Notes under the pieces: model-generated
Seen by the model: the letters and a program-made list of their open reading frames with translations, nothing else
What the model was told of the DNA's origin: nothing
The model's database searches: none
Made by a program: the position numbers and the translations under genes
Assembly: GCA_039640505.1 (NCBI GenBank)
Contig: CP046865.1
Location: 1,479,501-1,543,500 of the forward strand
Direction: 5' to 3'
From: Rhodobacteraceae bacterium Araon29
GTDB taxonomy: Bacteria > Pseudomonadota > Alphaproteobacteria > Rhodobacterales > Rhodobacteraceae
Length of the DNA stretch: 64,000 nt
Shown: positions 19,361 to 37,591 of the stretch, one piece after another
Layout: every line of letters begins with the position of its first letter
Numbering within the stretch: the first letter of the stretch is position 1

Positions 19361-19373
19361 GTTTATCTCCGTA

Positions 19374-20305: not shown

Positions 20306-20378
20306 CTTGTGCCTTTGATTTGCCGGAAACTTGGATGCAGTCGCTATCACATCCTGAACCGGCAAACCATAGGAATGC

Positions 20379-21847: not shown

Positions 21848-21876
21848 TTGACTTTGACCTCAAGAACAATTATAGG
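21848..21876 (+). promoter_or_regulatory. Candidate promoter of the gene transfer agent cluster
   Basis: TTGACT and TATAGG stand exactly 17 bases apart in the otherwise empty 418-base AT-rich gap (21513-21930), about 100 bases before g1. It is the best sigma-70-like match in the gap. No full CtrA box (TTAA-N7-TTAA) is visible there. Confidence 0.5.
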
Positions 21877-21978
21877 TTGAAAAATGCTGGGCGAATGCTG
21901 TGTGGGGCTAAACTATTCATTTAGTGCCATATGGTTTCGGTTAGGCGGAGGATCATCGACCCAATTATCAGAGTGACC

Positions 21979-22320
21979 ATGATCCTAAACTCCTCCGAAA
22001 GTGAGCCACTATCGAAAGATTGCATCCGACGCCGTCTTGATGCGGCCTTAAGCAGTTTTGTGCAGCAAGTTGAGGCATTAGAAGCCCAAGTGCGCGCAAG
22101 AAACTATGCAGATGAAACCCAAGCCCGAGATCTATTTTTGAACCTAAAATTATGGATTAGGTGGGCAAATGAAGCGGAGAAAATACGTGCAGAATCTCAA
22201 AAAGTTGCCTCAGGAAATCATTTTGGAAACAACCTCGACCTTGCCGCAGCACGGGCTGGTATCGGGTGCCGCTTGGATCGCCTCCGCAGATGTTGCCGTG
22301 AAGGACAAATTTCTAAATGA
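21979..22320 (+). CDS. Gene transfer agent protein g1 (small terminase-like)
   Basis: The 113-residue protein (from the ATG at 21979; an open frame allows 16 codons more) matches the first gene of RcGTA-type clusters: CIRRRLDAALSSFVQQVEALEAQVRARNY and DLFLNLKLWIRWANEAEKIR are its typical helices. In RcGTA this product is thought to act as the small terminase subunit. The gene overlaps g2 by about 150 bases, more than usual, so the true g2 start may be further in. It opens the cluster 100 bases after the candidate promoter. Confidence 0.75.
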   Translation: MILNSSESEPLSKDCIRRRLDAALSSFVQQVEALEAQVRARNYADETQARDLFLNLKLWIRWANEAEKIRAESQKVASGNHFGNNLDLAAARAGIGCRLDRLRRCCREGQISK

Positions 22321-23599
22321 GCTGAGTGTCTCAGAGCTTTTCGCGCTTCCGTATTTGTTCGAGTTCTGGGCCTTGCCCCATCAGGTTTCACCATCTGGTG
22401 CTTGGCGTACATGGGTAATCATGGGGGGGCGAGGCGCTGGCAAAACGCGGGCTGGTGCAGAATGGGTGCGTCATCAAGTTGAAGGCGCAACCCCGCTTAT
22501 GGATGGTAAGGCGCGTAGGATGGCATTGGTTGCTGATACGTTAGAGCAAGCGCGAGATGTTATGGTGTTTGGTGAAAGCGGTATTCTGGCCTGTAGCCCA
22601 CCAGACCGCAGGCCCGTTTGGCAAGCCGCTCGAAAGCGATTGTTGTGGCCAAACGGTGCAACCGCAACCGTCTTTTCCGCTCATGATCCAGAGGCTCTGC
22701 GAGGACCGCAATTTGATGCAGCATGGTGTGATGAACTGGCCAAGTGGAAGCAGGGGCAGGCGGCTTGGGATAATTTGCAGTTTGCGCTTCGGTTGGGGGA
22801 TGAGCCCCGTCAATGCGTGACCACAACCCCGAGGAATGTCGGAGTTTTGAAAACAATTCTTGGCCACTCTAGCACGGTGAAAACCCACGCTCCTACCGCT
22901 GCTAACCAAGCAAATTTGGCGGATAGTTTTCTTGCAGAAGTTCACGCGCGATATGCTGGTACGCGCCTGGGCCGACAAGAGCTTGATGGGCTTCTTATTG
23001 AGGGCATCGAGGGCGGGCTTTGGACCGAAAAAATGCTGAGCGTAGCTCAGGTTGATATCGTGCCTGAACTGGACCGGGTGATTGTTGCCATTGATCCGCC
23101 AGTCACGGGTCATAGCAAGTCCGATGATTGCGGAATTATCGTCGCGGGCGCTGTCACCAGCGGACCTATGCAGGACTGGCGCGCATATGTGTTAGCTGAT
23201 GCGACGATTTCGGGCAGCAGCCCGACGAAATGGGCAACTGCGGCTGTTGCCGCTTTGGATCGGTGGGGTGCAGAGCGGTTGGTTGCCGAGGTTAACCAGG
23301 GGGGCGATTTGGTCGAAACAGTTGTGCGTCAGGTTGCCCCAATGGTGCCTTATCGCGCTGTGCGTGCTGGGCGGGGCAAAGCCGCCAGAGCCGAACCTGT
23401 CGCTGCGCTTTACGAGCAGGGCAAGGTGTATCACGCAAAAGGATTGGACAAACTAGAAGAGCAAATGTCCCAGATGACTGCGCAGGGCTACCACGGATCT
23501 GGCAGCCCTGACAGGGTGGATGCCCTTGTTTGGGCACTTAGTGATCTTCTGCTGGACCCTGCGGCACAAGCACAGCCGCCCAGTTTGCGGGTTCTTTAG
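22169..23599 (+). CDS. Gene transfer agent large terminase (g2)
   Basis: The 476-residue ATPase/nuclease has Walker A GGRGAGKT (86-93) after TWVIM, a DEAD-like QFDAAWCDELAKW segment, and the RNase H-like nuclease blocks VIVAIDPPVTGHSKSDDCGI and DRVDALVWALSDLL. It packages random host DNA into the particle. AGGTGGG precedes the ATG at 22169; a GTG six codons later with GGAG upstream is an equally possible start. In the GTA order it is followed, after 118 bases, by the portal gene. Confidence 0.92.
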   Translation: MKRRKYVQNLKKLPQEIILETTSTLPQHGLVSGAAWIASADVAVKDKFLNELSVSELFALPYLFEFWALPHQVSPSGAWRTWVIMGGRGAGKTRAGAEWVRHQVEGATPLMDGKARRMALVADTLEQARDVMVFGESGILACSPPDRRPVWQAARKRLLWPNGATATVFSAHDPEALRGPQFDAAWCDELAKWKQGQAAWDNLQFALRLGDEPRQCVTTTPRNVGVLKTILGHSSTVKTHAPTAANQANLADSFLAEVHARYAGTRLGRQELDGLLIEGIEGGLWTEKMLSVAQVDIVPELDRVIVAIDPPVTGHSKSDDCGIIVAGAVTSGPMQDWRAYVLADATISGSSPTKWATAAVAALDRWGAERLVAEVNQGGDLVETVVRQVAPMVPYRAVRAGRGKAARAEPVAALYEQGKVYHAKGLDKLEEQMSQMTAQGYHGSGSPDRVDALVWALSDLLLDPAAQAQPPSLRVL

Positions 23600-23717
23600 G
23601 ATTTGACGCAACACCGAGCGTACGGTGCCCTAGCCTGGGCTTAATCATTTTCTGATTATTTATCATCAAGACCACGCCACTGGTTATCTTTGGAAAGTTG
23701 GAAACAGGAGTGATTAC

Positions 23718-24908
23718 ATGTCGCTATTTAATGTATTTGGAAGCCCCGCTTCACCTCAGCAGGCTAAAGAGTATAAATCCAGCGCAAGTTTTCCGGTTGT
23801 CACCTATCAAACAACTGGCCGGGTCGGATGGAGTGCCCGAGACCCCGTGAGCATGGTTAAATCAGGCTTTTGTGCCAACCCTGTAGGATTTCGTGCCGTT
23901 CGATTGATTGCAGAGGCAGCGGCCGCGCTGCCGATGGTGTTGCAGGATAAAGAGCGGCGGTATGAAAGCCACCCGGTTCTATCACTTCTCGATGCGCCCA
24001 ACCCTGCACAAACAAGAGCAGATTTGCTTGAAGCACTATTTGGTCAAATTTTACTCAGTGGCAACGGATATCTAGAGGCTGGTTTATCCACGTCCGGTAT
24101 GCCAATCGAACTTCATGTTTTACGTTCTGACCGCATGTCGCTTGTGCCTGGATCGGATGGGTGGCCCGCTGCTTATGATTATACGGTTGCCGGGCGAAAG
24201 CGACGCTTTGAGGTAAGTGGTTCAACCTGTCAGATATGCCATATTCGTAGCTTTCATCCCCATGACGATCATTATGGACTTTCGCCCCTGCAAGCTGCGG
24301 CGCAGGCGCTTGATGTGCATAATTCGGCCTCCCGTTGGTCCAAAGCATTGCTCGACAATGCGGCGCGACCTTCGGGTGCAATCGTATACCGTGGTCGTGA
24401 TGGTCAAGGCAGCCTGAGCGACGACCAATATGACCGCTTGGTAAACGAACTCGAAACCCATCATCAAGGTGCGCGCAATGCCGGACGGCCCATGCTGTTA
24501 GAGGGGGGGTTAGATTGGAAACCTATGGGATTTTCGCCTTCTGATATGGAATTTCAAAAAACCAAAGAGGCCGCAGCACGTGAAATTGCAGTTGCCTTTG
24601 GCGTACCTCCAATGATTTTGGGCATTCCTGGAGATGCCACATATGCCAATTATCAAGAAGCCAATCGGGCCTTTTATAGGTTGACTGTGCTGCCTTTGGC
24701 GCACCGCGTTGCGGCGCATCTTGGTCGGTGGTTGTCTACTTTGAGCGTTGAACCAGTCTCGTTGCGCTTGGATCTTGATGAAATTCCCGCCCTCGCTCTT
24801 GAGCGTGATGCGCAATGGCGACGCGTTGCTGAGGCCGACTTTTTGTCTGATGAAGAAAAACGCCGCTTGCTTGGATTGCCAATGATGAACGGTTTAAAGA
24901 ATGCATAA
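23718..24908 (+). CDS. Gene transfer agent portal protein (g3)
   Basis: The 396-residue protein is an HK97-type portal (phage_portal family): VGFRAVRLIAEAAAALPMVL, LLDAPNPAQTRADLLEALFGQILLSGNGYLE, QTKEAAAREIAVAFGVPPMILG and YQEANRAFYRLTVLPLAHRVA. Twelve copies form the vertex ring through which DNA enters the head. GGAG lies before the ATG. The 118-base gap before it is the second largest in the cluster and carries a small CACCG/CGGTG stem. Confidence 0.93.
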   Translation: MSLFNVFGSPASPQQAKEYKSSASFPVVTYQTTGRVGWSARDPVSMVKSGFCANPVGFRAVRLIAEAAAALPMVLQDKERRYESHPVLSLLDAPNPAQTRADLLEALFGQILLSGNGYLEAGLSTSGMPIELHVLRSDRMSLVPGSDGWPAAYDYTVAGRKRRFEVSGSTCQICHIRSFHPHDDHYGLSPLQAAAQALDVHNSASRWSKALLDNAARPSGAIVYRGRDGQGSLSDDQYDRLVNELETHHQGARNAGRPMLLEGGLDWKPMGFSPSDMEFQKTKEAAAREIAVAFGVPPMILGIPGDATYANYQEANRAFYRLTVLPLAHRVAAHLGRWLSTLSVEPVSLRLDLDEIPALALERDAQWRRVAEADFLSDEEKRRLLGLPMMNGLKNA

Positions 24909-25134
24909 CACCACTCAGCGAAATGGTTTTGAAGCCTTTGATTGTGCCCCAGCTTTGCGGCTGCAAGCTCATGAGGCGTTGGTAAAGCTTCAATTCGATA
25001 ATATGAACCGTCGGTTGGACAAAATTGAAGTTCTGATCGAAAGGCTCGAAAAAAGATTGTGGCTGACCATGTATGGCGTCGTTGCTGTTATCTTGGCGCA
25101 GGCGCTTCAGCAAATTCTGCCAAGCCTGACTTAA
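24901..25134 (+). CDS. Gene transfer agent gp3.5-like small membrane protein
   Basis: The 77-residue product overlaps the portal gene by 8 bases. Residues 25-51 form a charged helix (LVKLQFDNMNRRLDKIEVLI then ERLEKRLW) that could be a short coiled coil, and residues 52-72 a hydrophobic segment (LTMYGVVAVILAQALQQILP). A small gene of this build between portal and protease is a known feature of RcGTA-type clusters; its role is unknown. Confidence 0.7.
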   Translation: MHNTTQRNGFEAFDCAPALRLQAHEALVKLQFDNMNRRLDKIEVLIERLEKRLWLTMYGVVAVILAQALQQILPSLT

Positions 25135-25152
25135 TCCACTTTCGAAAGGTAA

Positions 25153-25746
25153 ATGATGACTGATCAAATGAATTTGGAGCATAAATTTTGCGCCGTCGAA
25201 ACGTGCCTAACCTTATCAGGAGATACGGAGATTGAGGGCTATGCAAGCCTTTTTGGAACCCCAGATCGCAATGGTGACATTGTACAAAAAGGGGCTTATG
25301 AAAAATCTCTTGCGGCCTTGTCGGCCAATGGGCGGCGGGTGAAAATGCTCTGGCAACATGATCCAGCTCAGCCAATTGGTATTTGGGAAGAAGTACGTGA
25401 AGATGCCCGCGGGCTTTATGTCAAAGGTCGGTTGCTCGACAATGTTTGCAAGGCGCGTGAGGCGGCCTGTTTGGTTGAAGCCGGCGCCATTGATGGGCTT
25501 TCCATTGGATATCTAACAAAACGCGCTGGAACGAGCGAACAGGGCCAAAGGCTCTTAAGTGAATTGGAATTATGGGAAGTATCGTTGGTGACATTCCCGA
25601 TGCTGTCTAGCGCAAGGGTCGCGGCCAAAGCAGATTTATATTTTTCTGACCGTGCCGTCGTGAAGCTAGCTGATATTTTTCAATCGGCAACTCAGGAAAT
25701 GACGCTTTCTACGCCTCATTCAATTAACAGCAGGACTTCATTATGA
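25153..25746 (+). CDS. Gene transfer agent prohead protease (g4)
   Basis: The 197-residue protein is an HK97-family prohead protease: VEGYASLFG-type start (EIEGYASLFGTPDRNGDIV), KMLWQHDPAQPIG with the catalytic His, and IDGLSIGYLTKRA with the catalytic Ser. It trims the N-terminus of the capsid protein during head maturation. AAAGG precedes the tandem ATGs at 25153/25156. The stop overlaps the capsid gene by 4 bases. Confidence 0.93.
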   Translation: MMTDQMNLEHKFCAVETCLTLSGDTEIEGYASLFGTPDRNGDIVQKGAYEKSLAALSANGRRVKMLWQHDPAQPIGIWEEVREDARGLYVKGRLLDNVCKAREAACLVEAGAIDGLSIGYLTKRAGTSEQGQRLLSELELWEVSLVTFPMLSSARVAAKADLYFSDRAVVKLADIFQSATQEMTLSTPHSINSRTSL

Positions 25747-26930
25747 CCCAACCCGACTTACCAACTAAAACCTCGAATGATCCACAGGCAGTGGATCTGC
25801 TTACGGCTGCGGCGCATGATTTTTTTGAAACGTCGAACAGTGTTTTAGCCGCCATTCAAACCAAACTTCAAAAACAGGAAAAGCAACTTGCCATGCTCGA
25901 TCGAAATCAAATCTCCCGTCCTATATTAGCACATCATGATATGCCTGATGCGCCACATAAAAAAGCTTTTAATACCTATTTGCGGTCCGGTGAGGACGGC
26001 GATTTACGCGGCCTGGACATTGAAACCAAGGGTCTTTCCAGCGCAGTCAATAGTGATGGGGGATATCTCGTTGATCCCCAAACTGCAAATGCGATCAATT
26101 CAAGTCTTTCTGGAGCGGCTTCGGTGCGTGCGATTGCAAGTGTTGTCACTGTCGAGGCAAGCTCTTACGATGTGCTGATCGATCACACAGATGTTGGCGC
26201 CGGCTGGAGCGATGAAAATAGTACGCCCAATGAAAGTGATAGCCCTCAAATTGATCGCATCACGATCCCTCTTCATGAATTAAACGCGCTTCCAAAGGCC
26301 TCTCAAAGACTGCTTGATGATAGTGCCTTTGATATTGAGGGTTGGCTAGCGACCCGAATTTCTGACAAATTCACCCGCGCCGAAGGGGCAGCTTTTGTGT
26401 CTGGTAATGGTATTGACAAGCCCAAAGGCTTTTTGACCTATGACACCGTTTCGGTCGGAGCTGAAGAATGGGGAAAGCTTGGTCACGTGATCACAGGCGC
26501 AAGTGGTGATTTCGCCGAAGCAAACCCTGCAGATGCGCTGGTTGATCTGGTCTATGCTCTTGGTGCACATTACCGCGCTAACGCCAGTTTTGTGATGAAT
26601 TCCAAAACCGCGGGCCGTGTACGCAAACTCAAAGATAATGACGGGCGGTTTTTATGGTCTGATGGCCTGGCCTCGGCAGAGCCAGCGCGTTTGCTTGGAT
26701 ATCAAGTTCTGGTTTCTGAAGATATGCCAGACATTGCCGATTGGGCTCCAGCCATTGCTTTTGGTGACTTTAAGGCCGGTTATACGATTGCTGAACGCCC
26801 AGATTTACGCGTGTTGCGTGATCCATTCAGTGCAAAGCCTCATGTGCTTTTCTATGCCACAAAGCGGGTTGGTGGGGATGTTAGCGATTTTGCAGCCATT
26901 AAGCTTTTGAAATTCGCCGCTCAAATTTAA
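25743..26930 (+). CDS. Gene transfer agent major capsid protein (g5)
   Basis: The 395-residue HK97-fold capsid protein has an N-terminal scaffold-like helix region (residues 1-100, with coiled-coil potential around FFETSNSVLAAIQTKLQKQE) that the g4 protease should remove, then GLSSAVNSDGGYLVDPQTANAI, GWSDENSTPNESDSPQIDRI and the C-terminal GDFKAGYTIAERPDLRVLRD. It forms the small oblate head characteristic of GTAs. A strong hairpin follows the stop, before g6. Confidence 0.95.
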   Translation: MTQPDLPTKTSNDPQAVDLLTAAAHDFFETSNSVLAAIQTKLQKQEKQLAMLDRNQISRPILAHHDMPDAPHKKAFNTYLRSGEDGDLRGLDIETKGLSSAVNSDGGYLVDPQTANAINSSLSGAASVRAIASVVTVEASSYDVLIDHTDVGAGWSDENSTPNESDSPQIDRITIPLHELNALPKASQRLLDDSAFDIEGWLATRISDKFTRAEGAAFVSGNGIDKPKGFLTYDTVSVGAEEWGKLGHVITGASGDFAEANPADALVDLVYALGAHYRANASFVMNSKTAGRVRKLKDNDGRFLWSDGLASAEPARLLGYQVLVSEDMPDIADWAPAIAFGDFKAGYTIAERPDLRVLRDPFSAKPHVLFYATKRVGGDVSDFAAIKLLKFAAQI

Positions 26931-26970
26931 GTCAGCGGCGAAATAGGCGGTGCTCTCAGTGCATCGCCTT

Positions 26971-27038
26971 GGGCGCGCGCCGGATAATGGCGAGTTGGCC
27001 GGTTTCCTCCGTCTATGCAACGCGCTTGGCGCGCGCCC
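26971..27038 (+). promoter_or_regulatory. Long-stem hairpin after the major capsid gene
   Basis: GGGCGCGCGCC at 26971 is a perfect 11-base reverse complement of GGCGCGCGCCC at 27028, with 46 bases between them. It fills the 143-base gap between capsid and g6 and has no T-run, so partial termination or 3'-end protection of a capsid-rich mRNA is more likely than full termination. Confidence 0.55.
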
Positions 27039-27073
27039 GTTCGCATCAATGAGATGACAAAGAAAGAAAACAA

Positions 27074-27667
27074 ATGATTTTGTCTGAAACACACCCAATT
27101 CCATCAGAAAATTTGCCGGTTGAGGCCTTGAAAGCCCATTTGCGAATGGGGACAGGGTTTGCTGAAGACACGCTGCAAGAACCAGTTCTTTTTAGTTTTT
27201 TGCGCGCCGCTGTCACGGCAATAGAATCTAGGATCAGTCAAATATTACTGCAGCGAGAGTTTCTTTGGGAAACCCCGTCACAAGTGATTATCGGTGATGG
27301 GTTGAGATTTCCCATTCGTCCAGTGCGTTCAATTGTGAAAATAATCGCTATGGACAAAGCAGGTATGTCCTCCGTTTTGCCGCCGGAAGCTTATCAATTT
27401 AGTTATCAGGGAGATCGGCAAATATTGCAGTGCGCACCAGCCGATAGGGGTGCGGCTGTTACATTGTTAATCACAATGCAGGTTGGAATTCATAGCGAGC
27501 TAAACTCGATTCCAGCAGATTTGCTTCAAGCTGTCATGCTGTTGGCTGCCCACTTTTATGAATATAGGGAAGAGACAAATTTAAAAGGCGGCTGCATGCC
27601 CTTTGGTGTTTTAAGCCTTATTGAACGCTATCGGCCATGCCGCATTTATGCTGGGCAAATGTCATGA
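27074..27667 (+). CDS. Gene transfer agent head-tail connector (g6)
   Basis: The 197-residue protein is the GTA adaptor of the phage_gp6-like/TIGR02215 type: LKAHLRMGTGFAEDTLQEPVL (helical), AVTAIESRISQILLQREFLW, then RFPIRPVRSIVKI and LLQAVMLLAAHFYEYREETN. It binds below the portal. Sequence and position agree with RcGTA g6. AAAGAAAG only weakly resembles a ribosome site. Stop and g7 start overlap as ATGA. Confidence 0.88.
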   Translation: MILSETHPIPSENLPVEALKAHLRMGTGFAEDTLQEPVLFSFLRAAVTAIESRISQILLQREFLWETPSQVIIGDGLRFPIRPVRSIVKIIAMDKAGMSSVLPPEAYQFSYQGDRQILQCAPADRGAAVTLLITMQVGIHSELNSIPADLLQAVMLLAAHFYEYREETNLKGGCMPFGVLSLIERYRPCRIYAGQMS

Positions 27668-28008
27668 ACTTTGCCGCACCAAAGTTATCTCGTTTACTAA
27701 CGCTTGAAACACCGATCACCCGGCCTGATGGAGCAGGGGGCTATTCCAACTCATGGACTGTTTTAGGTCATTTTTGGGCTGCAGTGGATGTGGCATCAGG
27801 CAGGGCCACGTCGGGTGAAACATCCCCTATTACGCGTGTCAGCTACAACATAATTGTACGTGCCAGTCCGGACGGTTCAGCAAGCCGGCCGCGCGCTGGA
27901 CAGCGATTTCGCGAAGCTCAGCGCCGATATCAAATAAAGACCGTCAAACAGGTCGATGGGCGCGCGCACTATCTTAGCTGCTTTGCGACCGAGGAGCTTG
28001 CATTATGA
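27664..28008 (+). CDS. Gene transfer agent head-tail joining protein (g7)
   Basis: The 114-residue protein is a phage head-tail joining/stopper protein: RLLTLETPITRPDGAGGYSN, then FWAAVDVASGRATSGE and RPRAGQRFREAQRRYQIKTV, a SPP1-gp16-like beta barrel. I start it at the ATG overlapping the g6 stop. It follows g6 and precedes g8 in the fixed GTA order. Confidence 0.85.
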   Translation: MNFAAPKLSRLLTLETPITRPDGAGGYSNSWTVLGHFWAAVDVASGRATSGETSPITRVSYNIIVRASPDGSASRPRAGQRFREAQRRYQIKTVKQVDGRAHYLSCFATEELAL

Positions 28009-28415
28009 GCTTTGCGAACTCTGCAGCATTGCAATCCGCGATTTATACTCAGTTGTCGGAAGATTCTGAGGTTTTGGATCTGGTGGGGGGGCATATTTAT
28101 GATGCGATGCCATCGGGTGATTTGCCCGAGTTGTTTATAAGTCTCGGCGCCGAAGTGATGCATGACAAATCCGATGTGACTGGGATTGGTACAGATCATG
28201 ATTTGACACTTTCGGTGATCACGACCAAGGCCGGGTTTCTACCAGCAAAGGTATTAGCTTCTGCTGTGGGACAAGCTCTTCTTGGCACTTTGCCAGATCT
28301 AGAGCAGGGCAGAATAGTCTTTTTTAACTTTATCCGAGCTACAGCGCGGCGCGATACCGATAGTCAAACACGTCGGATTGACATGCTATTTCGCGCGCGG
28401 CTCGCTGATGTTTAA
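28005..28415 (+). CDS. Gene transfer agent tail terminator (DUF3168, g8)
   Basis: The 136-residue protein matches DUF3168 phage proteins: ALQSAIYTQLSEDSEVLDLV, GGHIYDAMPSGDLPELFISL, DLTLSVITTKAG and RRIDMLFRARL. Members cap the tail tube at the head end. Overlaps g7 by 4 bases. Confidence 0.87.
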   Translation: MSFANSAALQSAIYTQLSEDSEVLDLVGGHIYDAMPSGDLPELFISLGAEVMHDKSDVTGIGTDHDLTLSVITTKAGFLPAKVLASAVGQALLGTLPDLEQGRIVFFNFIRATARRDTDSQTRRIDMLFRARLADV

Positions 28416-28439
28416 AATTCAACAAAATGGAGAACCCCA

Positions 28440-28853
28440 ATGGGCGCACAAAACGGTAAAGACTTTTTAATCAAAGTGGATATGAGCGGTGCGGGTCAAT
28501 TTGTCACTTTGGCGGGTTTGCGAGCCTCTCGGCTAAGCTTTAATGCCGAAAGTGTCGATGTAACGACCTTAGACAGCCAAGGAGGCTGGAGAGAGCTTTT
28601 GGCTGGAGCAGGGGTGCGAAGTGCCTCAATCTCAGGTTCTGGGATTTTCAAAGATGAAAGCACGGATGAACGTGCTCGGCAGATATTTTTTGATGGGAAA
28701 ACCCCAGATTTTCAAGTGATAATCCCTGATTTCGGAACCATTCAAGGGCCGTTTCAAGTGACTGCTCTTGAATACGGCGGTAGCCATAATGGCGAAGCCA
28801 CTTATGAAATTTCACTGGCCTCTGCCGGTGAGCTGCAATTCACCGTGCTGTAA
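28440..28853 (+). CDS. Gene transfer agent major tail protein (g9)
   Basis: The 137-residue protein is a TP901-1-type major tail tube subunit: MGAQNGKDFLIKVD, LRASRLSFNAESVDVTTLDS, GWRELLAGAGVRSASISGSG and FQVTALEYGGSHNGEATYEI. It stacks into the tail tube. It starts 24 bases after g8 behind AAAATGGAG. Confidence 0.93.
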   Translation: MGAQNGKDFLIKVDMSGAGQFVTLAGLRASRLSFNAESVDVTTLDSQGGWRELLAGAGVRSASISGSGIFKDESTDERARQIFFDGKTPDFQVIIPDFGTIQGPFQVTALEYGGSHNGEATYEISLASAGELQFTVL

Positions 28854-29182
28854 TGGTGGGCAATCCATATCGCGGTGAAGTGAGCCTTGTAATGAATGGG
28901 CGAACCCATAGCTTGCGGCTGACCCTCGGCGCGCTTGCAGAATTAGAAACAGCGCTTAAAGCCGACAGTTTGATCGAACTGGTTCAGCGATTTGAAAACG
29001 CCACGTTCAGCAGCCGTGATATTATTGCTCTTTTGATTGCTGGTTTAAGAGGAGGCGGTTGGGAAGGAGACACTAAAGAGTTGCAGAACGCTGACATCAA
29101 AGGAGGTCCGCAAACTGCAGCGCAGGTTGCCGCCTTGCTTTTGCATCGCGCTTTTGGGGCGCAAAACTCGGACATTTCGTGA
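28853..29182 (+). CDS. Gene transfer agent family protein (tail assembly chaperone, g10)
   Basis: The 109-residue protein has the GTA family signature NPYRGEVSLVMNGRTHSLRL, TLGALAELETALKADSLIEL and DIIALLIAGLRGGGWEG. It is the first of two tail-assembly-chaperone-like genes. Its ATG overlaps the last base of the g9 stop (TAATG). Confidence 0.85.
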   Translation: MVGNPYRGEVSLVMNGRTHSLRLTLGALAELETALKADSLIELVQRFENATFSSRDIIALLIAGLRGGGWEGDTKELQNADIKGGPQTAAQVAALLLHRAFGAQNSDIS

Positions 29183-29397
29183 GCAATTCCTTTGACTGGC
29201 CCGCATTAATGCGCTTGGGGATGTGTAATTTAAGGCTCAAACCTGACGAATTTTGGCGGCTGAGCCCTCTAGAGCTGAACATGATGCTGGGCCAGTCTGA
29301 CATAAGTACGTCGCTTGACCGTTCAGGTTTGGCCGCCCTTGAAAAACGCTTCCCTGATATTGGAACTGGACCGTCAGAAGGACTAAAAGATGACTGA
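29179..29397 (+). CDS. Gene transfer agent tail assembly chaperone (g10.1)
   Basis: The 72-residue protein matches the rcc01693-type chaperone: SFDWPALMRLGMCNLRLKPD, then EFWRLSPLELNMMLG. The start is a GTG overlapping the g10 stop, a normal translationally coupled arrangement for phage chaperone pairs made by coupling or frameshifting. The stop overlaps g11 by 8 bases. Confidence 0.8.
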   Translation: MSNSFDWPALMRLGMCNLRLKPDEFWRLSPLELNMMLGQSDISTSLDRSGLAALEKRFPDIGTGPSEGLKDD

Positions 29398-30055
29398 AAG
29401 CCAAAGCTATAGCGAATTGCAAGACCAACTGGATGCCGTGGACGCAGCGCTTGGGGCAACCACATCAATGGCGGATGATTTTAACACCGAGCTGCGCAAA
29501 ACCACCCAAGGCCTTGATGCAGCAAAGCGCAGTTCGCAGGCGTTGCAAAGCTCTTTGGATGGCGGTTTACGCAAGGCAATTGATGGGGTGATTTTAGACG
29601 GAGAAGGCTTAAGCAATGCATTAAAGCATGTGGGCACTGCTTTGGCCAATACAGCTTATAATACTGCTCTAAAGCCGATAACCGGACACTTAGCTGGCCT
29701 AATGACCCAAGGTGTCGAAAGCATCTTTGGCTCTGCCTGGCCGTTTGCAAAAGGGGAAGGTTTTACCAGCGGACGCGTCATGCCGTTTGCCCAAGGCGGG
29801 GTGGTTGGTCAGCCAACGCTGTTTCCCATGCGCGGCGGTGTAGGATTGATGGGCGAAGCCGGGCCTGAGGCGATATTGCCGCTCGCGCGCGGTAGAGACG
29901 GAAAGCTGGGTGTGCGTGGGGATACAGGTAGCAGTGCGCCAGCACATGTAGTGATCAATATCACCACACCAGATGTGGAAGGGTTTCGCCGCTCTCAAAC
30001 GCAAATTGCTGCACAGGTGCGGCGCGCCTTGGGCAGCGCAGACCGCAATCGTTAA
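29390..30055 (+). CDS. Gene transfer agent tape-measure protein (g11)
   Basis: The 221-residue protein is short for a tape measure, as expected for the short-tailed GTA: residues 5-60 form a coiled coil (QSYSELQDQLDAVDAALGAT), residues 100-110 are hydrophobic, and the tail carries GGVVGQPTLFPM, GLMGEAGPEAILPLARG, the C-terminal motif of phage tape-measure proteins. Its helical length sets tail length, so the particle should have a tail near the RcGTA size. Confidence 0.88.
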   Translation: MTESQSYSELQDQLDAVDAALGATTSMADDFNTELRKTTQGLDAAKRSSQALQSSLDGGLRKAIDGVILDGEGLSNALKHVGTALANTAYNTALKPITGHLAGLMTQGVESIFGSAWPFAKGEGFTSGRVMPFAQGGVVGQPTLFPMRGGVGLMGEAGPEAILPLARGRDGKLGVRGDTGSSAPAHVVINITTPDVEGFRRSQTQIAAQVRRALGSADRNR

Positions 30056-30070
30056 TTGAAGGGACCGTGA

Positions 30071-30703
30071 ATGTCATTTCATGAAATCCAATTTCCAGCG
30101 TCTATTAGCTTCGGTTCTGTCGGGGGGCCTGAGCGCCGTACAGACATAGTTTCACTCAGCAGCGGCTTTGAAGAACGCAATACCCCCTGGGCGCATTCTC
30201 GGCGGCACTACGATGCCGGTATCGGGATGCGCTCATTGGATGATATCACAACTTTGATATCCTTTTTCGAAGCCCGCCACGGGCAAATGTTTGGTTTTCG
30301 ATGGAAAGACTGGTCCGATTACAAATCTTGTTTGCCTTCAAGCGTTGTCGGTTACGAGGATCAGGTGATTGGCATCGGTGATGGTTTCAAAAGTGATTGG
30401 AGCTTGTTGAAAACCTATTCTTCGGGCGGGCATAGCTATCAGCGACCGATTGTCAAACCAGTCGCAGGGTCAATCAAGGTTGGCATTCAAGGCGAGCAAC
30501 AATTTGAGCAAGTTCACTTTGATGCCGATCACAGCACGGGGATATTACAATTTAAAATGCCCCCAGCCTCGGGGCTGCAAATAACAGCAGGTTTTGAGTT
30601 CGATGTCCCAGTACGCTTTGATACCGACCGAATTCAAACCAGTGTTGCAAGTTTTAAGGCCGGTACTGTACCGAGCATACCGGTTATTGAGGTGCGGCTG
30701 TGA
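30071..30703 (+). CDS. Gene transfer agent distal tail protein (DUF2460, g12)
   Basis: The 210-residue protein is DUF2460/TIGR02217: FHEIQFPASISFGSVGGPER, GFEERNTPWAHSRRHYDAG, DITTLISFFEARHGQMFGFR and TKAGTVPSIPVIEVRL-type end (SFKAGTVPSIPVIEVRL). It forms the hexameric distal tail ring. It starts 15 bases after g11. Confidence 0.92.
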   Translation: MSFHEIQFPASISFGSVGGPERRTDIVSLSSGFEERNTPWAHSRRHYDAGIGMRSLDDITTLISFFEARHGQMFGFRWKDWSDYKSCLPSSVVGYEDQVIGIGDGFKSDWSLLKTYSSGGHSYQRPIVKPVAGSIKVGIQGEQQFEQVHFDADHSTGILQFKMPPASGLQITAGFEFDVPVRFDTDRIQTSVASFKAGTVPSIPVIEVRL

Positions 30704-31581
30704 AACAAAACGCTCTCTCAAATGCGCTTAGATCACCAAATAAAACTCTTTGTCATGCTTGGGCCATTACCAGAGGAGATGGAACTGTCTTGGGGTTTAC
30801 TGACCACGATTTAGAACTGTCCTTTGATGGGGTTTCATTCAAACCAAGTGGTGGCTTTTCAGCAGCAGCTTTACAGCAAACCACAGGGCTGGCGATTGAT
30901 AACTCTGAGGTCTTGGGTGCTATTTCAGATGATATGATCCAAAATGAAGAGATAGAGGCCGGACTTTTTGATGAAGCGACGGTGAAAGTTTGGTTGGTAA
31001 ACTGGAGCGATCCAGTTCAACGCCAACTGGAATTCTCTGGATTTATCGGAGAAATTCAGCGTAAAGGCAGTCTTTTTCAAGCTGAGTTGCGCGGCTTAAG
31101 TTCAGCTTTGAACCGGCCTGTCGGGCATGTGTATCAGGCCCCTTGTACAGCGGTGCTTGGCGATAAAGCCTGTCGGTTTGATTTTCAAACAGCAGGATTT
31201 CATCATATTTGCGAAATTGAAAAAGTGGAAAATAACCGGATTTTGCGCTTTGCTGACCTGAGTATTTTTGAACCTGGTTGGTTTATCAAAGGAAAAGTTG
31301 TTGTCATTTCAGGTGCTGCCAAAGGGCAACTGCTGTTGATCAAAAGTGATGCCTTTGAAGGTCAAAACCGTATTATAGAGCTATGGGAAACTGTCCGTTC
31401 AACCTTACAAACAGGCGACAAAGTAAAGCTCTTTGCCGGATGCGACAAAGATTTTAAAACCTGCCGATTGAAATTCAACAATGCGGTGAATTTTCGCGGA
31501 TTTCCGGACATTCCACCTGAGGATTGGATCGCTATACACCCAAGCCAAACCACCACGCGTTCAGGAGGAAGTCGGCGATGA
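30700..31581 (+). CDS. Gene transfer agent hub protein (DUF2163, g13)
   Basis: The 293-residue protein is DUF2163/TIGR02218: CHAWAITRGDGTVLGFTDHD, LELSFDGVSFKPSGGFSA, QQTTGLAIDNSEVLGA, and a C-terminal half with cysteines typical of the iron-sulfur-binding hub (APCTAVLGDKACRF, AGCDKDFKTCRLKFNN, then NFRGFPDIP). RcGTA hub structures show a cluster held by such cysteines. Start overlaps g12 by 4 bases. Confidence 0.92.
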   Translation: MKQNALSNALRSPNKTLCHAWAITRGDGTVLGFTDHDLELSFDGVSFKPSGGFSAAALQQTTGLAIDNSEVLGAISDDMIQNEEIEAGLFDEATVKVWLVNWSDPVQRQLEFSGFIGEIQRKGSLFQAELRGLSSALNRPVGHVYQAPCTAVLGDKACRFDFQTAGFHHICEIEKVENNRILRFADLSIFEPGWFIKGKVVVISGAAKGQLLLIKSDAFEGQNRIIELWETVRSTLQTGDKVKLFAGCDKDFKTCRLKFNNAVNFRGFPDIPPEDWIAIHPSQTTTRSGGSRR

Positions 31582-32021
31582 CATTGCGGCAAATAATTGA
31601 AGTATCTGCACGTGGCTGGATTGGAACACCTTGGCATCACCGGGCCTCATGCCGTGGGGCGGGCGCCGATTGCCTTGGGCTTATCCGGGGCGTGTGGCGG
31701 GATGTGATAGGCCCTGAGCCTGAGCTTTTACCTGCCTATAGTGATGATTGGAGCAAGCTGCGACACCGCTGGGGTATCCGCAATCGTTTGGCTTCGCATT
31801 TTACCCCTCTTGCTGTCTCGATGGCGCGGCCAGGAGACGTAATTTTGCTATGTATATCGCCTAGAAGTGGGGCAGAACATTTGGCGATTCTGGCGCAGAG
31901 AGGGGATGTTTTGACACTAATTCACAGCTATCAAAAGCACGGTGTGATTGAGCAAACCTATACGCCATCATGGCGGCGTAGGGCTATGGAAGGATTTTGT
32001 TTTCCTGAAAGGTTGAGCTAA
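31578..32021 (+). CDS. Gene transfer agent NlpC/P60 peptidase (g14)
   Basis: The 147-residue protein is a NlpC/P60 cysteine peptidase: GWIGTPWHHRASCRGAGADC with the nucleophile Cys in GADCLGL, and the catalytic His in SGAEHLAIL. It probably opens peptidoglycan during DNA delivery. The ATG at 31578 overlaps the g13 stop (ATGA); an upstream in-frame ATG would only add residues inside g13. Confidence 0.92.
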   Translation: MTLRQIIEVSARGWIGTPWHHRASCRGAGADCLGLIRGVWRDVIGPEPELLPAYSDDWSKLRHRWGIRNRLASHFTPLAVSMARPGDVILLCISPRSGAEHLAILAQRGDVLTLIHSYQKHGVIEQTYTPSWRRRAMEGFCFPERLS

Positions 32022-35000
32022 TGGCAACGGTTGTATTTTCCGCTCTTGGGGCTGGCTTGGGAAGTTCTTTAAGCAGCACTTTTTTAGGACTTTCAATGAC
32101 TGCTGTTGGACGCTTTGCGGGGGCGGCGGTCGGCCGAGTTGTCGATGCTCAACTGATGGGGCAGGGATCTGAACCGGTTGAGGTTGGGCGGTTGGATCGT
32201 CTGCGATTTACGCAAGTTGGAGAAGGACAACCAATCGCACAGGTTTATGGCCGCACACGGATTGGTGGGCAGCTTATTTGGGCCTCTCAGTTTGAAGAGG
32301 CCATAAATCCAACAGGTGGTTCTAGTTCAAGCAAAATAGAGCCAGGCGTCGCAGAAAAAAAATCCTATTCTTATTCTGTTAGTCTTGCCATTGGCCTGTG
32401 CCATGGGGAAATCACCCACGTGTCCCGGGTCTGGGCGGATGGGGTTGAATTGGGGTTATCAGACATAAACATGCGGGTGCACACCGGCAGTGAAACTCAG
32501 TTGCCAGATCTCAAAATTGAAGCAGTCGAAGGCACTGGTAAAGCGCCCGCTTATCGCGGCATCGCCTATGTCGTGATAGAGGATTTGCTGCTTTCCCAAT
32601 TTGGTAACCGAGTGCCGCAGTTTAATTTTGAAGTGTGCCGTCCAGCACAAAGCCAAATTGGTTTAGATCCAGAAGTCGCAGAGCTTGTGCAAGCGGTGAC
32701 GGTCATGCCGGGTACTGGGGAATATGCGCTGGCCACAACCAAAGTCAGCTATGATTATGGCCAGGGACAGTCCAGAACCGCAAATGTAAATTCACCCGCA
32801 GGGGTGGCGGATATAACCGCTTCTCTCACCATGCTCTCCAATGAATTGCCCAAATGCGGGGCCGCTTCTTTGGTGGTCAGCTGGTTTGGGGGTGATTTAC
32901 GCTGCGCAGAATGTCAATTGCGCCCCAAAGTCGAACAGCACAAGACCGAAGGGGCAGAAATGGCTTGGCAAGTTGCCGGGCTAGATCGTGCAAAAGCTGA
33001 GCAAGTCTTGATGAGTGCCGATGGCCGCCCGATTTATGGCGGTACGCCCTCGGATGCCGGCGTTATCGAAGCGATCAAAGCGCTAAAGGCGGCAGGTCAG
33101 GATGTGATGTTTTATCCGTTTATCTTGATGGATCAAGCTGCAGGTAATGAATTGCCAGACCCTTACAGCGATACTTTGGGTCAGCTGGCGCTTCCATGGC
33201 GGGGGCGGATCACCCTATCAAAAGCGCCTTCAGTTTTGGCAAGTCCGGATCAAAGCTCAGTGGCTGCTAATGAGGTAAAACAGTTTTTTGGGCAGGCCAA
33301 GGCCAGCGATTTTTCAATCGTTAATAACGAAGTGCGCTACGACGGCCCCGATGAGTGGAGCTATAAAAGGATGGTTCTGCATTACGCGTTTCTGTGTCAG
33401 GCCGCCGGGGGGGTATCCGCCTTTTGTATCGGCTCAGAAATGCGCGGCCTTATGCAAATTCGCGGTGCTGATAATACCTTTGTTGCGGTTCAAGAAATGC
33501 GCAAGCTAGCAGCGGATGTAAGCGCCGTTTTGGGGCCTAAAACAAAGCTTGGCTATGCGGCTGACTGGAGTGAATATTCCGGCTATCAGCCTTTGGATGG
33601 GTCAGGCGATAAATTCTTTCATCTCGACCATCTTTGGGCGGACCGCAATATAGATTTCATTGGAATTGACAATTACATGCCTCTGTCTGATTGGCAGGAT
33701 GGAGACACCCACCGCGATGCAAATTGGGGCTCAATCTATAATATTGATTATCTTAAGGCGAATATAGAAGGCGGAGAGGGCTATGATTGGTATTATCAAA
33801 CCGATGCCGCACGCAAGGCACAAAGCCGAAAACCGATTACTGATGATACCGATGCAGAGCCATGGATATGGCGCTATAAGGATATTCGCAATTGGTGGTC
33901 CAATCCACACCACGATCGTCATTCTGGTGTACGTCAGGCGGTGGCCACTGATTGGGTGCCCATGTCAAAACCCATTTGGTTCACCGAAATTGGGTGTGCT
34001 GCCTTGGATAAGGCCACAAACCAGCCAAATAAATTTCTAGATCCCAAATCATCAGAGTCCGATTTTCCATATTTTTCAAACGGCCAGCGTGATGAATATA
34101 TTCAGATGCAATATTTGCGGGCTCTGACAACCTATTGGGCTGACCCCGTAAAAAATCCTGTCTCACCGCTGTATCACGCCCCTATGATTGATATGACACG
34201 GGCCTTTGTTTGGGCGTGGGATGCGCGGCCTTACCCATGGTTTCCCCGCGCTGATGATCTATGGAGTGATGGGGCGAATTATGCGCGTGGGCATTGGATA
34301 AATGGCCGTGTTTCAGGAGCGTCTCTGGCATCTGTTGTGGCTGAAATTTGTGAAAAGTCAGGGTTTTCGCATTATGATGTCTCTCAGTTGCACGGCTATT
34401 TGCGCGGCTATCATCTCACGCAGGTCACTACCGCCCGCAGTTTACTGCAACCTCTTGCGCAGCGCTATGGGTTTGATGCCGTTGACGATTGTGGGCGTTT
34501 GAAATTTCTCCCACGCAATGCTGGCGTTGTGCATGACGTGCCGCCCTCGCATCTGGTCGACAGCTCAGAACTGGCGTCGTTGGTCGAAACCACGCGTGAT
34601 AGCACACCCGATTTAACCGGCCGCGTGCAGATGACCTTTGCCGAGGCAGATGGTCACTATCAAGTGCGAAGCGCAGAGGTGATCTTGGCAAGTGATCAAA
34701 CCCATGCCGTGACCAATCACCAAACATCTTTGGTAATGACGCCGCAGGAAGCGCGCCAAACCCTTGAGCGATGGCTGATAGAAACGCGGGTTGCGCGGGA
34801 CAGCATACGGTTTGGATTGCCACTATCAAAACGCAGCATTGGCCCCGGGGATCGGGTGAGGATGACGGTCAATGATGCACAGGGGATCTATCGGGTAGAT
34901 CATGCAGAATTAGGGCAGTTTCAGCTGATTACAGCTACTCGGATTGAACCAAGCGTTTATCAGCCCTCGCCCTACAGTGATGCCTCTGTAAGCTTGAAAC

Positions 35001-35953
35001 CTTTCGTGCCACCCTTGCCCGTTCTTGCGATGTTTCTTGATTTGCCTCTCTTGAGCGGTGATGAAGTGCCCCATGCGCCGCATATTGCAGTTGCCGCAGA
35101 GCCATGGCCCGGCAGTGTAGCGATCTATAGTTCGGATCAAGATGCAGATTACCACTTAGATCACCTTGTTTATCATCGCTCAAAGATAGGTCAGGTGCTT
35201 GAGCCACTGCCGGCAGGGCCACTGGGGCTTATAGATCAGGGACATGTTTTGCGGGTTACATTGCGAAATGCAGATTTGCGTTCGGTGTCCGAGACAGCCC
35301 TGTTGGCGGGAAAAAACATTGCTGCAATCGGTGATGGAAGCGCTGCGAATTGGGAAGTGATACAGTTTCAAAATGCTGAATTGATTGGCAAGGATGAATA
35401 TCAGCTTTCAGGTTTGCTGCGTGGGCAAGCAGGTAGCGATGCCGCAATGCGTGATGTTTGGCCCAAAGGAAGCCTGTTTGTCCTGCTTGACGGGGCTCCG
35501 GTTCAATTGGACCTTAAATCTGCAAACCGTCAAGTCGAACGCCACTACCGGATTGGCCCGGCCAAGCGTGCCTTTGATGATCCCACATATCGCCATCAAA
35601 CCCATAGCTTGTCGGGCATAGGACTGCGGCCATATCGGCCCTGTCATTTGACGGTGAAGGCAGGTGATGGCGGCCTTGATATTGCTTGGATACGGCGGGG
35701 CCGGATCGATGCCAACCCATGGTCTGAAACCGAGATCCCGCTTGGTGAAACCTTTGAGCGCTATCGTGTTCGTGTCATCGGTGGCGGGCAGGTGCTCCGC
35801 GAGCATTTGGTCAGCGATCCATCATGGCAATATTCCAAAGAGTTTCAGGATATTGACAATCCGAGCGGTGAAAATCTGCCCATTTGGCTAGAGGTGGCGC
35901 AAATTTCTGAGCGTTTTGGAGTAGGACCTAGCGCAGGTATAACACTTCCATGA
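32021..35953 (+). CDS. Gene transfer agent baseplate megatron / host specificity protein (g15)
   Basis: The 1310-residue protein equals RcGTA g15 in length. After a hydrophobic start (ALGAGLGSSLSSTFLGLSMT) comes the baseplate part with RIGGQLIWASQFEE and SYSVSLAIGLCHGEITHVSR, then from about residue 420 a TIM-barrel glycoside-hydrolase-like domain (YKRMVLHYAFLCQAAGGVSA, FIGIDNYMPLSDW, PIWFTEIGCAALD) and a C-terminal phage-tail domain (LSGLLRGQAGSDAAM). It forms the tail tip and touches the recipient cell. It starts on the last base of g14. Confidence 0.95.
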   Translation: MATVVFSALGAGLGSSLSSTFLGLSMTAVGRFAGAAVGRVVDAQLMGQGSEPVEVGRLDRLRFTQVGEGQPIAQVYGRTRIGGQLIWASQFEEAINPTGGSSSSKIEPGVAEKKSYSYSVSLAIGLCHGEITHVSRVWADGVELGLSDINMRVHTGSETQLPDLKIEAVEGTGKAPAYRGIAYVVIEDLLLSQFGNRVPQFNFEVCRPAQSQIGLDPEVAELVQAVTVMPGTGEYALATTKVSYDYGQGQSRTANVNSPAGVADITASLTMLSNELPKCGAASLVVSWFGGDLRCAECQLRPKVEQHKTEGAEMAWQVAGLDRAKAEQVLMSADGRPIYGGTPSDAGVIEAIKALKAAGQDVMFYPFILMDQAAGNELPDPYSDTLGQLALPWRGRITLSKAPSVLASPDQSSVAANEVKQFFGQAKASDFSIVNNEVRYDGPDEWSYKRMVLHYAFLCQAAGGVSAFCIGSEMRGLMQIRGADNTFVAVQEMRKLAADVSAVLGPKTKLGYAADWSEYSGYQPLDGSGDKFFHLDHLWADRNIDFIGIDNYMPLSDWQDGDTHRDANWGSIYNIDYLKANIEGGEGYDWYYQTDAARKAQSRKPITDDTDAEPWIWRYKDIRNWWSNPHHDRHSGVRQAVATDWVPMSKPIWFTEIGCAALDKATNQPNKFLDPKSSESDFPYFSNGQRDEYIQMQYLRALTTYWADPVKNPVSPLYHAPMIDMTRAFVWAWDARPYPWFPRADDLWSDGANYARGHWINGRVSGASLASVVAEICEKSGFSHYDVSQLHGYLRGYHLTQVTTARSLLQPLAQRYGFDAVDDCGRLKFLPRNAGVVHDVPPSHLVDSSELASLVETTRDSTPDLTGRVQMTFAEADGHYQVRSAEVILASDQTHAVTNHQTSLVMTPQEARQTLERWLIETRVARDSIRFGLPLSKRSIGPGDRVRMTVNDAQGIYRVDHAELGQFQLITATRIEPSVYQPSPYSDASVSLKPFVPPLPVLAMFLDLPLLSGDEVPHAPHIAVAAEPWPGSVAIYSSDQDADYHLDHLVYHRSKIGQVLEPLPAGPLGLIDQGHVLRVTLRNADLRSVSETALLAGKNIAAIGDGSAANWEVIQFQNAELIGKDEYQLSGLLRGQAGSDAAMRDVWPKGSLFVLLDGAPVQLDLKSANRQVERHYRIGPAKRAFDDPTYRHQTHSLSGIGLRPYRPCHLTVKAGDGGLDIAWIRRGRIDANPWSETEIPLGETFERYRVRVIGGGQVLREHLVSDPSWQYSKEFQDIDNPSGENLPIWLEVAQISERFGVGPSAGITLP

Positions 35954-36285
35954 GACCTTTGATGCATGGCGATCTGGTGGCCGCGGGCCGCGCTCTTCTG
36001 TCGGTGCCTCCAGCCTGCCGGCAGGCACATATCCGCACGCTCATCATTCGAAGCCGGGCTGCAGACCGATATAGAAAACGGTATGGTAAAAGCCACCGTG
36101 ACTGGGGGGAAGGGTCGTTGATGAGCTGCGCACGCTATTGTATCCAACCAATAGAGCCACCCTTGTGCGATCCCAATTATGCGCAGGCTTTACGCTGCGT
36201 TTTGCAAGCAGCAGCGCCAAGCCTATCCTCTTGCGCAGCCAATACACAGCTGCAGGGCTGGGTTCAGTTCAAGGCGCGCCTTTGA
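35950..36285 (+). CDS. Small conserved protein following g15
   Basis: The 111-residue product overlaps the g15 stop (ATGA) and so is translated with the GTA. Its N-terminal half, MRPLMHGDLVAAGRALLSVP, then RAADRYRKRYGKSHRDWGEG and SLMSCAR, resembles a small family often found directly after g15 in Rhodobacterales. The C-terminal third (after residue 75) runs into the convergent DksA-like gene and looks unconserved; four cysteines are scattered there. Role unknown; it was not among the structural components I know from the particle. Confidence 0.6.
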   Translation: MRPLMHGDLVAAGRALLSVPPACRQAHIRTLIIRSRAADRYRKRYGKSHRDWGEGSLMSCARYCIQPIEPPLCDPNYAQALRCVLQAAAPSLSSCAANTQLQGWVQFKARL

Positions 36286-36561
36286 GATAAGATCGCCGCA
36301 ATCGTTGCAGTAGCCAAAGTCACCTTCCTCAATCCGCGTCAATGCTTGCAATAGGGCTTGGCGCAGGCCATCACGTCGGATTTGATGCGCCCTAGCCATT
36401 GCCTGAGCTTGTAGCGCGTCCATGCGGCTAAGGCGTCCAACAGACTGCTGATCCAACTCAACTGTTTGCTGGCTCTCTGCTCCTAAAGTATTTTCTTTGT
36501 CAATTTCGGCTAGTTTTTTCTGTATTAACCGGCGGAAATCGGATAAAATAACATCATCCAT
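36223..36561 (-). CDS. DksA/TraR-type zinc-finger protein
   Basis: The 112-residue protein has a long helical N-terminal part (LSDFRRLIQKKLAEIDKENT and RMDALQAQAMARAHQIRRDG) and the C4 zinc finger FGYCNDCGDLI...LCIGCARG of the DksA/TraR family, which acts in the RNA polymerase secondary channel. It lacks the two coiled-coil-tip aspartates (DxxDxA) at the place I would expect them, so it may be one of the short TraR-like forms. Its 3' end overlaps the end of the post-g15 gene by 63 bases on the opposite strand. Confidence 0.82.
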   Translation of the reverse strand: MDDVILSDFRRLIQKKLAEIDKENTLGAESQQTVELDQQSVGRLSRMDALQAQAMARAHQIRRDGLRQALLQALTRIEEGDFGYCNDCGDLISKARLELNPALQLCIGCARG

Positions 36562-36653
36562 AAACTTTTGGCCTCAGGCGCATTGAATTTATCTGATGTT
36601 GCCTATTTATGCCTTAAGGTGCAAGCAAGGTGTTGGATTTAGGAGCAGGTCCA

Positions 36654-37472: not shown

Positions 37473-37591
37473 GAGTTGAACTAACCCTTCATGATCGCCG
37501 TTGGCTTTTCGATACTCTAGAGTGCTCAAATACAATTGGAAAAGGCGGTACCTGACCGCGCCGTCCCAGAAATTTCAATTTTGCAGTTAAA

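Follow-up and report, generated by a model that had tools for sequence, protein, structure and literature searches.

We analysed a 64,000-nucleotide stretch of DNA from Rhodobacteraceae bacterium Araon29 (the window; positions 1479501–1543500 of a genome that forms a single 3,659,197-base contig, 99.98% complete) and found that it carries a gene transfer agent (GTA) cluster with the gene order of RcGTA, the GTA of Rhodobacter capsulatus. Judged from sequence, its gene order, its GTA-specific protein families and its setting among host genes with dispersed accessory loci identify it as an RcGTA-type GTA, and it is probably a functional one that works by the mechanism set out below. The cluster itself is ordinary, one more RcGTA-type GTA, because the megatron family was present in 270 of the 296 Rhodobacteraceae genomes sampled (≥90% complete), 247 of them above cut-off. 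We also propose, tentatively and at a little under even confidence, that Rhodobacteraceae GTAs carry two undescribed RNA devices: a post-capsid RNA of 75–90 nucleotides (nt), confined in the sequences searched to GTA clusters, which would balance capsid against connector and tail proteins or aid assembly, and a leader terminator that would make the regulator GafA a Q-like processive antiterminator, the window genome being a natural variant with a weakened leader terminator.

All open reading frames (ORFs) from g1 to g15, including g3.5 and g10.1, are open and follow RcGTA order on the plus strand between 21979 and 35953, and the ORF list continues with g16. An earlier note, made from the letters of this DNA, had called the cluster complete, with g1 to g15, g3.5 and g10.1 present and uninterrupted; this was confirmed for every ORF, with the addition that the interval also holds g16, absent from its list, and with the correction that the interval start, 21848, belongs to the −35 box and not to g1. 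Profile searches returned family matches for every cluster gene except g1, which is placed by its position, length and N-terminus, all as in the g1 of relatives, and which most likely starts at 21979 because its “MILNSSE” lines up, by eye, with their “MTLITPE”.

The small terminase gene g1 (21979–22320) is followed by genes for the large terminase (g2, 22298–23599; Terminase_6N and Terminase_6C (TerL); start uncertain, with a candidate GTG at 22298 and the ORF open from 22169), the portal (g3, 23718–24908; TIGR01537, 222 bits), the GTA head formation protein of the rcc01685 family (g3.5, 24901–25134), the prohead protease (g4, 25153–25746; TIGR01543, Peptidase_S78) and the HK97 major capsid protein (g5, 25743–26930; TIGR01554, 345 bits). 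Next come the head-tail connector (g6, 27074–27667; TIGR02215), the head completion protein (g7, 27664–28008; Phage_HCP; ORF open from 27637), tail completion (g8, 28005–28415; PF11367), the TP901-1-type tail tube (g9, 28440–28853; TIGR02126), g10 (28853–29182; PF11836, GTA-gp10), the tail assembly chaperone (g10.1, 29179–29397; PF09550, TIGR02216), the tape measure (g11, 29390–30055), the distal tail protein (g12, 30071–30703; DUF2460, TIGR02217), the baseplate hub (g13, 30700–31581; TIGR02218, 304 bits), an NlpC/P60 peptidase (g14, 31578–32021; TIGR02219), the megatron (g15, 32021–35953) and g16 (35950–36285; DUF7742, PF24891, 99 bits), a gene that passages of PMC9552610 describe for R. capsulatus. 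Three GTA-specific models exceeded their curated cut-offs, namely RcGTA_tape (NF058675; 299 bits, cut-off 220), the megatron model NF048004 (1800 bits, cut-off 800) and the rcc01685-family model NF048001 (107 bits, cut-off 50), and the megatron aligned over its full length to PDB entry 6tba (chain 6tba_8A, 1497 bits), whose names include a putative gene transfer agent protein.

A structured RNA between g5 and g6

The gap between the capsid gene g5 and the connector gene g6 encodes a covarying structured RNA (26968–27042, plus strand) with two stems and a conserved CCUCCG loop. In the window this gap is 143 nt long and folded better than its shuffled versions (z about −3), and the RNA's own fold gave z −2.9 (1 of 200 shuffles). 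Our set of related loci numbered 97, with 17 from relatives' genomes (one of another family) and 80 from a genome collection, and the structure was derived from an alignment, A2, of the window and 43 of the 56 dereplicated relatives with a g5–g6 gap of 80–210 nt. Among the 13 left out, ten lacked the core pattern and L040, L078 and L093 had it; these three and L103 later matched the model R2 described below. The consensus comprised two ten-pair stems around a conserved UCUAGCUGCUCCCCUCCGUCCGAG. Both sides had changed in 18 of 20 pairs, 89 cells were double changes versus 23.3 after shuffling, pairing held in 96.2% of cells versus 86.0%, and the covariation score was 0.477 versus 0.06–0.20 for slid structures; no shuffle out of 500 reached any of the five measures, in a test that favours the structure to the extent that it was derived from A2 itself. 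G-U cells numbered 165 and A-C cells 2, which places the structure on the gene-sense strand.

Model R2, trained without the window, matched 26968–27042 with 43.4 bits (E 2.9e−06) in a search of 126 kb of the genome, in which the sole other match up to E 10 was the same palindrome on the opposite strand. Across the related loci it matched 75 of 95 at E ≤ 0.01, including 32 outside training, and by gap the count was 74 of the 91 loci with a g5–g6 gap, 17 giving no hit; core lengths ran from 75 to 90 nt. Searching IMG/VR for the exact loop pattern gave at least 120 stretches, and 118 of those listed lay ≤400 nt after a same-strand g5 homologue, the other two beginning too near a contig end to tell. 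As a separate observation, 118 of the 120 listed contigs, filed there as viruses (loci L168 onward), look like GTA clusters, with a capsid gene and the g5–g6 RNA.

At the gathering score, Rfam matched nothing in the window except a tRNA, and permissive Rfam scans, run on parts of the window and of L092 and L110, gave sub-threshold hits only. Structured RNAs reported only from Rhodobacterales, HRC-8-4 and uORFC-8-2, are located at the cco operons and cysS in the available text of PMC8632094, which mentions no such g5–g6 motif and whose main text is without the words “capsid”, “phage” and “gene transfer”. We found no description of a small or structured RNA of a GTA among the literature matches listed, which does not establish absence from print, supplements and subscription papers being outside the scope. 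As far as checked, this would be a class of RNA not described before, one associated with a domesticated virus.

A phage particle takes hundreds of copies of the capsid protein against roughly a dozen connectors, and we favour a role in which the g5–g6 RNA would set this capsid excess by RNA processing, partial termination or translational control; a structural role inside the particle is also possible. Its position coincides with the start of a transcription unit at rcc01688 in co-expression data cited in a passage of PMC9552610, where we take rcc01688 as g6 because rcc01687 is g5 in the available text of PMC6854486. The CCUCCG loop could pair with the ribosome-binding GGAG that stands before g6 in 85 of 92 gaps. 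We rejected a pseudoknot between the loop and downstream sequence as weakly supported (a stretch of ≥6 in 14 of 44 sequences versus 13% in shuffles).

Promoter and leader hairpin ahead of g1

Upstream regions of g1 were taken from 79 sequences, which dereplicated to 62 with the window included, and they shared motifs with best Gibbs scores of 644 (versus ≤379 shuffled) and 853 (versus ≤439 shuffled). From 5′ to 3′ the shared layout reads TTGAC, CGNACGGT, TATAAC, a start motif GCTRGAAGAA, a GC-rich hairpin, a T tract and g1. The window promoter at 21848–21876 (plus strand; −35 TTGACT, 17 bp, −10 TATAGG) ranked first among 251,468 positions of the window and four other stretches of the genome by a matrix trained without the window, and the 17-bp-spaced promoter that the earlier note had placed before g1 is thus the GTA promoter of the family. 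The matrix was trained on 36 of 61 non-window sequences chosen by promoter pattern only, some of which are unlikely to be genuine promoters (leave-one-out 10th percentile −3.8); the window scored 6.1 against a leave-one-out median of 41.8, with CGNACGGT between the boxes not kept. A generic sigma-70 scan did not list the 21848 promoter and returned 19 sites versus 18.0 in shuffles. The conserved initial transcribed motif GCTRGAMGAA, here GCTGGGCGAA, follows at 21877–21898 (plus strand; Gibbs motif of the 62 sequences) and kept a consistent spacing to the next motif in 41 of the 62, the window included. By eye, the spacer element recurred (CCGTACGGT or CCGTACGCT) about 35–40 bp before the −35 box in 7 of 42 rows (L062, L068, L075, L077, L088, L096 and L108), and no such recurrence was evident in the window; a second copy there would fit two-sided binding by dimeric GafA.

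The leader hairpin of the window (21897–21935, plus strand) is terminator-like in most relatives and has a poor T tract here. Over a 41-nt stretch its minimum free energy was −16.4 (z −4.0, 0 of 200 shuffles), with z −2.8 for a 78-nt stretch and z −4.22 for the 62-nt leader. In the window together with the 36 promoter-selected relatives, the 62-nt leader folded with z ≤ −2 in 33 of 37 sequences versus 1 of 37 controls taken 300 nt further on, and a T tract followed the hairpin in 30 of the 36 relatives versus 0 of 36 control stretches. Under a strict definition (a hairpin of ≤ −15 kcal/mol before a T run), terminators were found in 52 of 79 sequences versus 3 of 395 shuffles. We considered and rejected a loss of the leader structure from the window, since the strict finder needs a T run and folding reveals a strong hairpin; the window retains the promoter boxes, the start motif and this hairpin, and is without CGNACGGT and a good T tract.

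Covariation in the leader stem was measured on an alignment, A1, of 36 of 38 loci already chosen for their hairpin (L078 and L093 were left out), so that its pairing rate is biased, whereas the promoter-selected fold test is free of this bias. The score was 0.488 versus 0.232 shuffled (0 of 500) and 0.085–0.210 for slid structures, and shuffles reached two of the five measures, namely pairs with changes on both sides (6; 75 of 500) and further pair types (6 of 500). The leader model R1 matched 55 of the 78 loci with enough upstream DNA at E ≤ 1e−4, and 21 of 57 such hits were outside training. Rfam gave no match at the leader in the window or in L062. A leader peptide was rejected, as the distance from promoter to T tract fell in all three residues modulo 3 (15, 10 and 5), which makes a kept reading frame unlikely.

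These observations bear on how GafA might work. According to passages of PMC11150451, the Caulobacter protein GafZ works by antitermination, its putative binding element lies in the spacer between the −35 and −10 boxes, and it shares homology with the C-terminal part of GafA; the authors, Tran and Le, consider that GafA might possess unrecognised antitermination activity, its sites being unmapped at nucleotide resolution. Such a mechanism requires a terminator downstream of the promoter and ahead of g1, and most relatives have one; on these grounds, and because of the homology with GafZ, the leader terminator suggests GafA antitermination in Rhodobacteraceae GTAs. No such activity was reported in the GTA literature searched, where, outside supplements and subscription papers, the Caulobacter work alone was directly relevant among the matches listed; Bartonella antitermination is cited in a passage of PMC13236601, and neither “terminator” nor “hairpin” occurs in the main texts of PMC6363796 and PMC6854486.

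Accessory genes, relatives and alternative readings

Genes that RcGTA keeps apart from its main cluster were found elsewhere in the genome. The gafA gene, a DUF6456 gene at 1757442, is open over 338 amino acids from its ATG, and divergent from it lies a DUF6477 gene that matches rcc01866 by position, a gene expressed divergently according to a passage of PMC9638019. By eye, TTAAC-N6-TTAAA, a box resembling a CtrA site, can be read with its end 64 nt upstream of the gafA ATG; its second half-site departs from published ones, such as the TTAAC-N6-GTAAC usually placed 65–71 bases before the start by Fogg, in whose available text (PMC6363796) CtrA of R. capsulatus exerts its effect at gafA and showed no binding to the promoter of the cluster. 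The earlier note was right that no clear CtrA box stands at the g1 promoter, and its absence is no defect, because CtrA acts at gafA in R. capsulatus and a CtrA-like box stands there in this genome. Near 74 kb of the genome a GTA_holin_3TM holin adjoins a holin-associated N-acetylmuramidase (endolysin), both open, so that the regulator and endolysin for which the earlier note had advised a check were found, and a holin besides. An open DUF2793 protein at 2682679 belongs to a tail fibre family (PMC10883770, in part of its text). A 761-amino-acid protein with a pectate-lyase-like match, also open, follows lysS with one 141-amino-acid ORF between them; tspA is located beside lysS in a passage of PMC13420450, and this place and match make the protein a tspA candidate.

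Gene order was conserved in the 97 related loci wherever genes were detected, with g3 and g5 found in 94, g15 in 91, g3.5 in 67, g16 in 37 and g1, which changes fast, in 30. Capsid relatives, 80 among the matches listed and mostly from Rhodobacteraceae or its genera, were 62–72% identical over the best segment, so no close named relative stood among these matches. Downstream neighbours recurred, a serine acetyltransferase gene in 76 of 97 loci and a DksA-like gene in 20, and no match to the upstream RlmB-type gene or the 377-amino-acid gene was reported in any of the 97. The latter gene (20379–21512, minus strand) is divergent from g1, shares the promoter region and had no Pfam match. The DksA/TraR-like zinc-finger gene (36223–36561, minus strand) is convergent with g16 and overlaps its 3′ end by 63 bp. 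DksA works together with ppGpp, which is itself linked to RcGTA control, and for this reason the pairing of a DksA-like gene with GTA clusters may not be accidental.

Several observations weigh against the functional reading and the two RNA proposals. In the promoter, CGNACGGT, the putative loading element common in the spacers of relatives, is absent from the window; the window fails the strict terminator definition with its poor T tract; and the best R1 hit, at the right place, reached only E 0.29, with an unrelated hit at 49069 at E 0.36. The window is also without GGAG before g6, so that pairing with the loop could not be the whole story of the g5–g6 RNA. Of the capsids of 45 taxa, that of the window showed the lowest mean identity, and neither the head-spike base model NF048002 (E ≤ 0.1) nor the fibre model NF048003 (E ≤ 0.001) matched anywhere in the genome, leaving the note's check for ghsA and ghsB without either spike family. 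A diverged spike protein could escape these models, which exceeded cut-off in 6 of 41 genomes for the base GhsA and 0 of 41 for the fibre GhsB, and spikes were not treated as defining; a guess at GhsB through a Leu-Gly N-terminus yielded no candidate. Finally, contig C40 of a conspecific draft, G041 (62% complete), joins window positions 9504–20939 directly to 35501–35721, and contig C69 continues 35636–44376 at 98% identity, leaving the draft without about 14.56 kb from the divergent gene through late g15, that is, the promoter, g1–g14 and most of g15.

The lack of a good T tract in the window, together with the 23 of 78 loci with upstream DNA that have no R1 hit at E ≤ 1e−4, would suit a leader hairpin that is a messenger RNA stability or translation element and no terminator, GafA merely recruiting polymerase. 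We hold this to be possible, if on the doubtful side, as the excess of strict terminators over shuffles speaks against it and as a hairpin between promoter and first gene, taken with the antiterminator role of GafZ in passages of PMC11150451, fits antitermination. It is very unlikely that the g5–g6 element acts as a palindrome in the DNA or as a short coding sequence and not as an RNA: its outer arms are GC-rich and nearly palindromic, and whole gaps folded with z ≤ −2 in only 26 of 60 dereplicated sequences, but the double changes far exceeded the shuffles, the G-U excess is not expected from a double-stranded DNA function, and the range of core lengths makes a kept reading frame unlikely.

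For the locus as a whole, phage-like head-tail genes and capsid relatives in 599 phage records, all below 60% identity, could be taken for an active or cryptic prophage. We rejected this reading, with no search aimed at integrase or replication genes, as hardly credible, since the locus sits among host genes, with an RlmB-type methylase and RibBA on its upstream side and a serine acetyltransferase and pyruvate dehydrogenase on the other, the lysis, fibre and regulator genes lie at other loci, and the GTA-specific families exceed their cut-offs, with the megatron nearly general in the family genomes sampled. The G041 contigs, the weak spacer element and T tract and the missing spike genes would point to a GTA that is being lost in the species, its structural ORFs open and its control decaying, which we regard as unlikely. 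Every ORF is open, as are gafA and the lysis, fibre and candidate tspA genes, and the GTA structural proteins show no acceleration compared with the neighbouring cysE1: for eight GTA proteins the GTA/cysE1 divergence ratio was 1.21, the second lowest of 45 taxa (median 1.39), in a lineage on a long branch in each of the two trees (its terminal branch ranking 43 and 44 of 45). The draft itself carries scattered single Ns (15 in L139 and 67 in L140, some three bases apart), a pattern that suggests a mixture of strains, and because of these Ns and another large break (656–9503) its junction at 20939/35501, where a short stretch is shared, is possibly a misassembly rather than a natural deletion. 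Changes in the g15 remnant are few and at contig ends (5.3 non-synonymous to 1.7 synonymous, and 4 to 2 on the other contig), and nothing firm follows from them. Two same-genus drafts, G001 (63% complete) and G002 (60% complete), gave no GTA match and have no bearing, as their contigs end or diverge before the site. The earlier note's view that selection is keeping the cluster accordingly agrees with the open ORFs and the lack of acceleration and is weakened by the apparent cluster loss in G041. The other segment missing from the conspecific contig, 656–9503, holds a creatininase, a CoA-transferase, a TRAP transporter (DctP, DctQ, DctM) and a LysR regulator, and could be an island, close to the tRNA-Leu gene at 9971, that varies between strains.

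Proposed mechanism and meaning

Under the functional reading that we prefer, and by analogy with RcGTA, CtrA would switch on GafA, GafA would load RNA polymerase at the 21848 promoter, the operon would produce a small particle with a tail, filled with random host DNA by way of g1 and g2, the holin and endolysin would lyse a small fraction of the cells, and the tail fibre and TspA would help the particle reach recipients. To this we add two proposed steps. GafA would carry the polymerase past the hairpin at 21897–21935, and the g5–g6 RNA would keep the capsid message, needed in abundance, apart from the connector and tail genes, needed in low copy, whether through RNA processing, through termination or through control of translation.

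Late-gene antitermination by the Q proteins of lambda and phage 21 uses an element placed between the two promoter boxes, a conserved transcript start and a terminator soon after, and we know of no homology between GafA and Q. The GTA promoter and leader of relatives have the same three-part layout, and a comparison with Q is also drawn in a passage of PMC11150451. In that text the Caulobacter crescentus system, CcGTA, likewise pairs an activator with an antiterminator and has both a DNA element in the spacer from −35 to −10 and a terminator soon after the transcript begins; it differs in that its terGTA, made up of three 150-bp repeats, follows the first gene, whereas the Rhodobacteraceae hairpin precedes g1, and in that GafA is one protein where Caulobacter has GafY and GafZ. 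Closest is RcGTA (rcc01682–rcc01699), with the same g1–g16 order, g3.5, g10.1, megatron and downstream serine acetyltransferase gene, and with GafA, holin and endolysin, the tail fibre family and a tspA candidate near lysS. The differences from it are the 5′ flank, here an RlmB-type gene and the divergent 377-amino-acid gene and in R. capsulatus yceG (PMC9552610, in part of its text), the antisense DksA-like gene between g16 and cysE, and the head-spike families, not found here.

The two RNAs matter more than one further RcGTA-type cluster. The g5–g6 RNA could mark GTA clusters apart from viruses among IMG/VR contigs, and the leader terminator, CGNACGGT and the start-of-transcript motif pinpoint the bases that would make the question of GafA antitermination, as raised in passages of PMC11150451, directly testable in Rhodobacteraceae.

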